DNA of 64,000 nt from Terriglobia bacterium (GTDB lineage Bacteria > Acidobacteriota > Terriglobia > Terriglobales > Acidobacteriaceae): positions 62,001-126,000 of the forward strand of contig JAIQGF010000014.1 in the NCBI GenBank assembly GCA_020072845.1, given 5' to 3'. Made by a program: the position numbers and the translations under genes. Of this stretch, positions 5,577 through 8,318 are shown piece by piece. Each line of letters starts with the position of its first letter. Position 1 is the first letter of the stretch. Under the pieces are notes generated by a model. That model worked only from the letters and a program-made list of their open reading frames with translations. It did not search any database and was not told the origin of the DNA.

Positions 5577-6629
5577 TCAGAAACCCCCGAGCTCCAGCAT
5601 TCCGGTTTCGTTCAGGTAATAAAGTCGACCGTACGCTACTTTCCGTCGAAATTCAGCATCTTGCTCCAACTGACACAGCCACCCGCGAACTACGGCGTCG
5701 GACAGCAAGTTGTAGCAAGCGTTACAGACGCTGTCTTCTATATAACTTTTCGGCAGATGCTGGCCCAGACCGGCTTCTCGCAACAGAGAAATAAGTCGGT
5801 TCGGACCCCACAGCCTGAGGGCATGTAATGCGACGCTCGTCTCGGCTCGATCGAAAATGTCAGCCACGGAGGATTCCCGCAGGTTGCCCAGAAGAAGCGG
5901 GTGCTTATGCTGTAACTCAATCAGCGGCCCTATGCAACCGTAAACGCGCGCGTCAGGAAAAATACAGGGCGAGCTAGCAGCCTGGCAGGCCTCTTTTGGC
6001 GGCTCATCGCTAAGCCCAAATCTCAATTGCGAGATCATCTGGGAAGCTCGGCCCAATGGGAAGGTAATCCCCGTACGAATATTCTCTTGATCGGTAAGCT
6101 GGAGAAGCTCGGAATTGACCCGTTGATACTCAGGATCCCTCTTATTGTCGGTGACGACTGAGATGTAGTAGGGTATCCCACACTGTTGGGCCGCCCAGAT
6201 AGCATTTTTTACATGCTCAAACGGCACGTAATGCTGATGGTATACATCAGTGCTAATCGACAAAAAACAGATCTTCGGCAGGCTCTCCAGCAACCGCTTG
6301 GCCGTTTCCCGTTTAGTCGCCCAAAACCCATTGGTCACAACTGATATGTACAAGTTACATTCAGCGGCGAACTCCATCACTTCTCTAAGCAGCTTTAGAT
6401 TGGAGAATGGCTCGCCGCCCGTTAACGAAAGAACATACACATAATGATTGCGATAGGAAGCGATCTGGCGAATCCAATTGCGGGCATCATCCAGAGTCAC
6501 TTCCTCGTGTCGATCCGGTCCGGCCTTAACGATGCAATGGGCGCAGGATGCCTGGCAATGATAGGTCAGGAATAGGCCTACGTTGCGCACAAATGGCGGA
6601 TCCCCACCCGTTCTTTGTACAGTATCCAT
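5577..6629 (-). CDS. Radical SAM protein with SPASM-like C-terminal cysteines
   Basis: A 350-residue radical SAM enzyme. CQASCAHC (Cys25, Cys29, Cys32) is the CxxxCxxC motif that binds the catalytic 4Fe-4S cluster, and LTGGEP (residues 69-74) is the SAM-binding GGE motif. Additional cysteines at 215, 222, 232, 302 and 305 look like ligands of an auxiliary SPASM/twitch cluster, as in peptide-modifying maturases. It is the second gene of a tight pair: the 84-codon gene upstream ends 17 bases before this ATG. The DNA looks lower in GC than its neighbours. The substrate is unknown; the arrangement would fit modification of the small upstream protein. The enzyme class is certain, the role is inferred. 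Confidence 0.85.
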   Translation of the reverse strand: MDTVQRTGGDPPFVRNVGLFLTYHCQASCAHCIVKAGPDRHEEVTLDDARNWIRQIASYRNHYVYVLSLTGGEPFSNLKLLREVMEFAAECNLYISVVTNGFWATKRETAKRLLESLPKICFLSISTDVYHQHYVPFEHVKNAIWAAQQCGIPYYISVVTDNKRDPEYQRVNSELLQLTDQENIRTGITFPLGRASQMISQLRFGLSDEPPKEACQAASSPCIFPDARVYGCIGPLIELQHKHPLLLGNLRESSVADIFDRAETSVALHALRLWGPNRLISLLREAGLGQHLPKSYIEDSVCNACYNLLSDAVVRGWLCQLEQDAEFRRKVAYGRLYYLNETGMLELGGF

Positions 6630-6646
6630 CTGACTGTGAGAGGCTC

Positions 6647-6901
6647 TTACTTCAATTGTTCAGGCACTTTCTGCATTACCACCAGCTGCCCCTGTGCCCG
6701 TTTCAGCGCGTCGAGGTGGTCGGCAAGCGCTGCGCCCGCCTTCGGGTCACCGCGACGTAGAACTGATGTCAACATGTCAATGTCAAAGATAATGTAACCA
6801 TTGTTGTGGGGAATCTGCGGTACGAACCTAACCTCATTAGTGAATGCCTTCAGCAAATCAACCGGAATCCTGAATTCTGCGGTGGGCGTTGTTTTGTCCA
6901 T
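6647..6901 (-). CDS. 84-residue protein upstream of radical SAM enzyme; candidate substrate or partner
   Basis: I do not recognise the family. The protein starts MDKTTPTAEFRIPVDLLKAF, has a central NNGYIIFDIDMLTSVLRRGD segment and a Lys/Gln-rich end, contains no Cys, and has no signal peptide. The start is well supported: AGGAGG (6910-6915) is 8 bases upstream of the ATG. It is the first gene of a two-gene unit with the radical SAM gene. Size and position match RiPP precursor or leader-binding proteins, but no canonical core or leader motif is visible. It could equally be a small accessory or chaperone subunit. Confidence 0.6.
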   Translation of the reverse strand: MDKTTPTAEFRIPVDLLKAFTNEVRFVPQIPHNNGYIIFDIDMLTSVLRRGDPKAGAALADHLDALKRAQGQLVVMQKVPEQLK

Positions 6902-7205
6902 TGTGGAATCCTCCTTCTGTAAGGTCGAACTGAAACCTTGTTCCGCTTAGACCTACTTGAACCCCGCATGTGCGAAGTGTTCGCTCCAACAGAAAGTACG
7001 ATGGGTGCACTGATCCGTGTACCCTGTACTCGTCTCGGTTATCGGGAGCCTGGGCCTACTGGGTAGTGACTTATGGTAGTCCCATTGCTAGCACTTCGCC
7101 TGAAGATTTTTTCGCAGCCGTGCCATTGTGGGAATCGAAACTTCTAACGACTAACTACTACCTACTAGCTACTAACCACTCTAACAACTAACTACGAATC
7201 CCCAA
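6902..7205. other. Intergenic stretch upstream of the radical SAM pair
   Basis: No gene is evident in these 304 bases. The half next to the small gene should hold its promoter, but I could not pick a convincing -35/-10 pair. The last 55 bases (7143-7198) are a degenerate CTAAC/CTACTAAC tract, the reverse-complement type of the GTTAG tract at 5381-5413 on the other side of the pair. Confidence 0.5.
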
Positions 7206-8318
7206 CTACTGCTTCTTGAACGCTTCTTTGTTCACCACGAACGGCATCTTGCTGGGATCAGCGTTGTAGTGGTTCTCCAGCACATCAATGAGGCCTTGCA
7301 CGCAGCGGCCCGCCATGCCTTTGTCGGGATCGGTGGAGAGCCGCGTGATCTTGCCGGCGCTGGCGAAGTGCGGGTAGAGGCGGCAGCGGTCTTCGATGGC
7401 GGGGTCGCGCAACGGCGAGTCGGCGGGCAGCGGTTCTTTGGCGAAGACATCGAGCGCGGCGCCGGCAATCCAGTTTTCCTTCAGCGCCTTGGCGACCGCG
7501 ACCTCGTCCACCACCGGCCCACGCGAGTTGTTGATCAGGTATGCGGAGGGCTTCATCATGCGCAGCGTCTTCTCGTTGATCAGGTGATAGGTCGGCGTGC
7601 CGCCCTCGCCGGGACGGACCAGCGGCACGTGAATGGTGACGAAGTCGGATTCGTGCAATGCCTGCTCGAAGTCCGCGTACTTGATCCAGGTGCGGTCTTT
7701 GGTGATGCCGAGAGAATGGCGCAGGTTCTTGAGCAGCTGGATGGCCTGCACGAACTGGTGGTTCTGGTACACCGGGTCGTAGCAGAGGATGTTCATGTCG
7801 AAGCCGTCGCATTTTCTGATGATCGCCTGCCCGATGCGGCCAGTGCCGATGACGGCGATGGTTTTGCCGGTGACTTCGTCGCCCAGGAACGGGAGATACG
7901 GGTGCCAGGTGCCCCACTCGTTCTTGCGCACGTTATGTTCGGCGCTCCACAGCTTGCGGGCGAGGGCGCCCATCATGAAAAAGGCAAATTCGGCAGTGGC
8001 TTCGGTGAGAACGTCGGCCGTATTGGTGAACGGGACGCGGTAGCGGTTGGCGTCGGCGCGATTGATGTTGTCGAATCCGACGGCGAGCTGCGAGACCACC
8101 TTCAGGTGGCCCTTGCCCGCCTCGAAAATTTCCGCGTCAATGGGATCGCGCAGGGTGGTGATGAGGCCGTCCACGCCGCTGCGCAGCTTTTCGATGACGA
8201 GTTTTTTCGGCGGCGGCTCCGGGCCGGGATAGACCTCGACGTCGTAGCCGCGCTGGCGCAGCAGATCGAGAGCTTCACCGATATCGCAGGTGGCGTACAC
8301 GCGCTTCTGGTCGGCCAT
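7206..8318 (-). CDS. NAD-dependent D-isomer-specific 2-hydroxyacid dehydrogenase
   Basis: The 370-residue protein belongs to the D-2-hydroxyacid dehydrogenase family (glyoxylate/hydroxypyruvate reductase, lactate or phosphoglycerate dehydrogenase relatives). Visible features are SQLAVGFDNIN, the NAD-binding IAVIGTGRIGQAI, the substrate-binding arginine in INNSRGPVVDE, the catalytic glutamate in FAKEPLPADSPL and the catalytic histidine in LYPHFASAG. A segment of about 25 residues between the Rossmann motif and the VTIHVPL strand (QAIQLLKNLRHSLGI region) is longer than usual. The ATG at 8318 is preferred over 8342 because GGAGG lies 5 bases upstream. The exact substrate cannot be read from sequence. 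Confidence 0.85.
   Translation of the reverse strand: MADQKRVYATCDIGEALDLLRQRGYDVEVYPGPEPPPKKLVIEKLRSGVDGLITTLRDPIDAEIFEAGKGHLKVVSQLAVGFDNINRADANRYRVPFTNTADVLTEATAEFAFFMMGALARKLWSAEHNVRKNEWGTWHPYLPFLGDEVTGKTIAVIGTGRIGQAIIRKCDGFDMNILCYDPVYQNHQFVQAIQLLKNLRHSLGITKDRTWIKYADFEQALHESDFVTIHVPLVRPGEGGTPTYHLINEKTLRMMKPSAYLINNSRGPVVDEVAVAKALKENWIAGAALDVFAKEPLPADSPLRDPAIEDRCRLYPHFASAGKITRLSTDPDKGMAGRCVQGLIDVLENHYNADPSKMPFVVNKEAFKKQ

Follow-up and report, generated by a model that had tools for sequence, protein, structure and literature searches.

A small gene and an EpeE-like radical SAM gene form a recurrent two-gene pair in an acidobacterium and in archaea

The 64,000-nucleotide stretch of Terriglobia DNA analysed here (the window) carries on its minus strand a small gene for an 84-residue protein without cysteine (6647-6901) and, directly behind it, a radical SAM gene for a 350-residue enzyme related to EpeE/YydG (5577-6629). 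The two genes belong together, as they recur in the same order in four further genomes, all of them archaeal, and the protein encoded by the small gene is likely to be the substrate of the enzyme. We give an even chance to the fuller reading, according to which the pair is a mobile two-gene RiPP-type cassette in which the enzyme modifies the small protein by C-alpha radical chemistry.

The gene pair and its surroundings

The two open reading frames are separated by a gap of 17 nt (6630-6646, minus strand), which is consistent with a single transcript for both genes. The ATG of the small gene is preceded by the Shine-Dalgarno-like sequence AAGGAGGA (6902-6915, minus strand), and the start of the radical SAM gene has no strong sequence of this kind. 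The spacing and the strong ribosome-binding site that a preliminary description of this region had reported are thus both present. Scans for promoters and terminators gave matches at chance level. The same description had judged the pair to be lower in GC than the flanking genes, and this view is supported by the composition: the small gene and the enzyme gene have GC contents of 0.514 and 0.520 and GC3 values of 0.60 and 0.57, respectively, versus 0.62-0.64 and 0.75-0.86 in the neighbours that were examined (purQ, proC, a D-isomer-dehydrogenase-like gene, argS, metG and tatD). The genes that flank the pair are proC and the dehydrogenase gene. Since proC followed by the same dehydrogenase gene was found in none of the ten relatives whose flanks were fetched, an empty site could not be reconstructed. 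A short run of units resembling ACTAACTACTA occupies positions 7143-7210, in the space that separates the pair from the dehydrogenase gene, with 4 matches versus 0.03 expected.

The enzyme, a divergent relative of EpeE

The best curated family for the enzyme is TIGR04078 of NCBIfam, the YydG/EpeE peptide epimerases (E 5.4e-26). It should be noted that the score of 91.8 bits (91.5 in a whole-genome search) falls short of the curated equivalog cut-off of 300 bits. The best sequences in the PDB are likewise EpeE entries (8ai6, 8ai3 and 8ai1, E 2.5e-18 to 3.4e-18), and the match to EpeE spans residues 15-312. Prokaryotic viperins (pVip) resemble the enzyme in the radical SAM core, over residues 18-131 only, with a score of 41.2 bits versus a curated cut-off of 180, and this similarity ends before the C-terminal cysteines. 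Judged by these matches, the enzyme is distantly related to EpeE/YydG and represents a divergent branch of the EpeE-like enzymes within the RiPP-maturase superfamily. The CxxxCxxC and GGEP motifs noted earlier were found at residues 25/29/32 and 71-74. The five additional C-terminal cysteines of the preliminary description need correction, as there are six (residues 215, 222, 232, 302, 305 and 319), five of which are common to the window enzyme and its two closest archaeal relatives. C215, C232, C302 and C305 align with cysteines of EpeE, are present in all five members of the clade described below and, together with C25, C29 and C32, are invariant in alignments of eight and of five sequences. 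These four residues are therefore candidate ligands of an auxiliary 4Fe-4S cluster.

EpeE contains two [4Fe-4S] clusters and abstracts C-alpha hydrogens at Val36 and Ile44 of its peptide, and its Cys223 is thought to quench the radical (PMC8326336, PMC5682303). Entry 8ai3, a C to A variant, reads YPCA, which places Cys223 at the second cysteine of YPCC; the window enzyme reads YGCI. Indeed, the position of Cys223 is occupied by isoleucine (Ile233 in the window enzyme) in five of five clade members, versus a second cysteine kept in 12 of the 13 sequences outside the clade among 18 EpeE-like sequences. In a tree of EpeE-like enzymes, the five members form one clade (support 98/96), with the window enzyme beside two close archaeal enzymes.

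The pair resembles the EpeE (YydG)/EpeX (YydF) epipeptide system of B. subtilis in several respects, namely a small gene that immediately precedes the gene of a radical SAM enzyme, the CxxxCxxC motif, four aligned C-terminal cysteines and a small protein without cysteine. However, apart from its low family score and the isoleucine in place of Cys223, the window enzyme extends at its C-terminus for about 45 residues past the CxxC, the small protein bears no relation to the 49-residue EpeX, and counterparts of the EpeP peptidase and the EpeAB transporter are absent alongside. Genes for a peptidase and an ABC transporter are part of the epeXEPAB operon of B. subtilis (PMC12871923).

Other EpeE-like enzymes occur with Frankia-type, proteusin-like and other precursors (in G565, Halocatena, G455 and G642). 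These systems share the enzyme superfamily and the gene order with the window pair, but their enzymes keep the CC motif and are only about 30% identical to the window enzyme, and their small genes are unrelated; some of the clusters include genes resembling B12 radical SAM methyltransferases. In Macrococcoides, YydF is encoded at the small-gene position before an EpeE-like enzyme, and in G565 this position is taken by a Frankia_peptide-like leader (PF14407, E 8e-4).

Several further clusters came to light in this wider family. On a plasmid of Halocatena salina (L018:3443-5044), a protein of 177 residues with a V/A/N-rich, polytheonamide-like C-terminus is encoded directly before an EpeE-like gene that keeps the CC motif, and this pair is a candidate proteusin-like epimerase system of a haloarchaeon. 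A genome of the same class as that of the window (G642, L051:2920-7729) has a separate RiPP-like cluster with two tandem CC-motif EpeE-like genes, a B12-type radical SAM gene and an upstream small gene of 104 residues. A RiPP-like cluster of another member of the phylum (G008, L052:329-6563 and L016:3501-3731) comprises a precursor-like gene of 76 residues ending in GCGCDDGFEYE, two radical SAM genes, one of them EpeE-like with histidine in place of Cys223, a gene similar to B12 radical SAM genes and two genes that by eye resemble glycosyltransferases. Lastly, in G456 (L033:2484-3068) a protein of 194 residues with a weak match to PqqD (RRE-like; E 0.054) is encoded directly before another EpeE-like enzyme.

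Recurrence, divergence and transfer of the pair

Close relatives of the enzyme were found by a two-motif scan of 84,980 species genomes, which returned Methanosarcina sp. UBA10923 (L024, 71% identity) and Methanosarcinales archaeon Methan_01 (L025, 67%). This genome-contig scan was steered by an alignment of the window enzyme with three made-up rows fixing the two motifs, TNGFWAT[PKY] and VP[FY]E[HN]V[KRL]N[ALV]; it misses relatives without the exact motifs, for example G448, and does not imply absence elsewhere. Profile searches added two more genomes from archaeal groups, G448 (51%) and G1141 (55%). Two samples of 297 and 399 genomes, which overlap, gave further enzyme matches of a distant kind only, namely in G008 (30% identity) and in G642 (a score of 140 bits against the clade profile). 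For the small protein, 396 genomes of the phylum contained no second copy that was credible; hits with E-values of 0.009-0.09 fell within larger or unrelated frames and were put down to chance. Scans of viral contigs, of phages and of plasmids, run singly with the small protein or the enzyme, did not yield a close relative.

A homologue of the small gene is located directly upstream of the enzyme gene in all four archaeal relatives, and thus in five of five genomes when the window is included. The link between the two genes that the preliminary description had supposed is thereby borne out, and radical SAM homologues occurring without the small gene, which would have counted against it, were not found among those of at least 50% identity. 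The small genes fall into a long and a short form. A search of 2649 ORF fragments from 15 loci with a profile of the three long-form sequences placed the three short-form genes of the clade at ranks 1-3. The short-form genes also scored higher than each of 6000 shuffled sequences, and a profile-profile comparison yielded 91.5%. Apart from the pair, no gene is common to the loci, and the flanking genes are different at every one of them. That the two genes are chance neighbours with unrelated functions is hardly credible, given that the same order occurs in five genomes with different flanks and that dS is equal for both genes.

In G448 the small gene is present as a tandem duplicate. The locus (L036:2355-7705) consists of six genes on the same strand, encoding a SPASM radical SAM enzyme, a B12 radical SAM enzyme, a protein of 230 residues, the two small-gene copies and the EpeE-like enzyme. 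The 230-residue protein has no match in Pfam or NCBIfam and contains six EP[VA]H motifs (WMEPVH, CIEPVH, QMEPVH, HMEPVH, WLEPAH and so on). In its make-up, this archaeal run of genes resembles a multi-core RiPP cluster.

The two closest archaeal copies, L024 and L025, were compared in their rates of change. Their enzymes are 83% identical with a pS of 0.45; for aIF2-gamma, the identity between these genomes is 64-67% and pS is 0.80. Because aIF2-gamma is far more diverged than the enzyme, the GC contents of the host contigs differ (39% and 59%) and the flanks are different, the cassette must have moved between archaea. The bacterial copy is 71% identical to an archaeal copy, and therefore transfer between the domains is indicated as well. 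On these comparisons, the cassette has been transferred horizontally, including between bacteria and archaea in one direction or the other.

In the same sequence pair, dS was 0.61 for the small gene and 0.67 for the enzyme gene, and dN was 0.42 and 0.09, respectively, a ratio of 4.4 (95% bootstrap interval 3.0-6.6). For this single pair, omega was 0.67 (95% interval 0.37-1.20) for the small gene and 0.14 (0.10-0.20) for the enzyme. No stretch of 88 codons in the enzyme exceeded a dN of 0.15. Within the small gene, the segment encoding the C-terminal GELVIMQQ was the slowest (dN 0.11) and the segment preceding it the fastest (dN 0.78). This pattern, seen in one pair, would fit better with a substrate that has a constrained target than with a subunit that is co-adapted to a conserved enzyme.

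The small protein and the fate of the radical

Searches of Pfam, NCBIfam, PHROGs and PADLOC gave no family match for the 84-residue protein, and nothing credible was found in the PDB. NCBIfam gave no match to YydF/EpeX precursors either. Elsewhere in the analysis, matches to SspB and to Dicty class I RNA stayed below threshold. The sequence and the profile searches agree with the preliminary description in that the protein lacks cysteine as well as a known family, and placement in a known non-substrate family, which would have spoken against a substrate role, did not emerge. With no cysteine in the protein, a sactipeptide or ranthipeptide, of which the substrate contains cysteine, does not apply. 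Across its relatives, the protein is characterised by an N-terminal motif, [FI]xIPx[DE]LLxxFxx[ED][VLI]R, and a C-terminal one, G[EQ]LV[IV]MQ. AlphaFold modelled the proteins with low confidence (pLDDT 55.8 for that of the window, 52.7 for a homologue from G448), so that a leader and a folded domain are indistinguishable in the models. With respect to a leader and core organisation, the sequences have a conserved C-terminus and a variable middle.

We propose that the small protein would be made first and that the enzyme encoded behind it would act on it. SAM bound at the N-terminal [4Fe-4S] cluster of the enzyme would give rise to a 5'-deoxyadenosyl radical, and this would most likely abstract a C-alpha hydrogen from the small protein, as EpeE does from EpeX. 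The best candidate site would be the conserved hydrophobic C-terminal segment, LVVMQ in the window. Because the thiol that returns the hydrogen in EpeE, Cys223, is replaced by isoleucine in five of five members, the radical would probably be resolved in a different way, through another hydrogen donor, desaturation or a cross-link. The product may then exert its effect in or on the cell, with no dedicated exporter gene alongside.

The substrate role would be in line with the wider family, where the gene at the same position is in several cases a recognisable precursor. It is also supported by the tandem copies of the small gene in G448 and by the fact that the loci have no other gene in common. 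Several observations count against it. In the G448 duplicates most of the variation falls in the middle and both ends are kept, which is unlike precursors with a leader and a hypervariable core; genes for a protease, an exporter or immunity are missing next to the pair in the window, in L025 and in L050; and the 230-residue repeat protein offers an alternative substrate in the G448 operon. The earlier reading of the pair as a RiPP precursor with its maturase thus stands with respect to the pairing and the enzyme superfamily; the small protein does not look like a classic leader followed by a hypervariable core.

The main rival, which we consider possible although less probable than a substrate role, is that the small protein is an accessory, for instance a subunit that delivers the substrate or sets the specificity, in function similar to a discrete RiPP recognition element, and that the substrate of the enzyme is encoded elsewhere. 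Indeed, the similarity between the window, L024 and L025 proteins spans their full length with a conserved hydrophobic pattern, and the G448 operon with its repeat protein, SPASM radical SAM and B12 radical SAM genes would suit this explanation too. PqqD and discrete RREs resemble the small protein in size (60-90 residues) and in their location next to a radical SAM gene. However, PqqD/RRE models did not match the 84-residue protein at E-values up to 10, and its predicted structural elements appear to be different, at low model confidence. Moreover, amino-acid change in the small gene runs about 4.4 times faster than in the enzyme that its product would have to fit, the G448 repeat protein is without a homologue in the window genome, G396, G397, G455 and G565, and no second candidate substrate was found near the window pair.

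Alternatively, the enzyme might still be an epimerase that introduces D-residues into the small protein, with a hydrogen donor other than the residue at the Cys223 position. It belongs to the EpeE-like fold family, and an alignment reading puts C222, which is present in the window, L024 and L025 enzymes, two residues past the approximate counterpart of EpeE D210, from where it could face the active site. C222 cannot be the common hydrogen donor of the clade, however, because it is isoleucine in L050 and L030. The uniform loss of the Cys223 thiol in the clade, set against its retention in nearly all other EpeE-like sequences, and the peptide breakage reported for EpeE mutated at Cys223 (PMC8326336) make this explanation unlikely.

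A regulatory role, in which the small protein would bind DNA or be of the antitoxin type, in the manner of AbrB/MazE, and would control the enzyme gene only, was suggested by the resemblance, by eye, of IPx[DE]LLxxFxxE to VxIPxELRxxLGI of AbrB-like proteins. Profile comparison gave a probability of 5.7% over 14 columns (the AbrB/MazE reference sequences were used as a check only), there was no match in Pfam or the PDB, and conservation extends to the C-terminus of the small protein. We consider this role very improbable, and the reading of IPxEL as AbrB-like was dropped.

We therefore retain the substrate reading. The preliminary description had also singled out the pair as the best candidate in the window for an undescribed modification system, and this remains apt for the small protein, which belongs to no known family, but less so for the enzyme, which is a branch of the EpeE-like enzymes. 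More tentatively, the pairs may represent a new RiPP-like class of bacteria and methanogenic archaea, in which a possibly folded small protein would be acted on by an EpeE-type enzyme without the hydrogen-donor cysteine, the C-alpha radical would lead to desaturation, a cross-link or a backbone change, and two genes would suffice as a mobile unit.

The five enzymes make up a small EpeE-like clade that has lost the single residue by which EpeE is known to act as an epimerase, and each of them has a conserved partner. As the cassette has two genes and would need neither a leader peptidase nor a transporter for a first assay, the fate of a C-alpha radical without a cysteine donor should be directly testable. 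The comparisons also point to a peptide-modification cassette that has crossed the boundary between bacteria and archaea.
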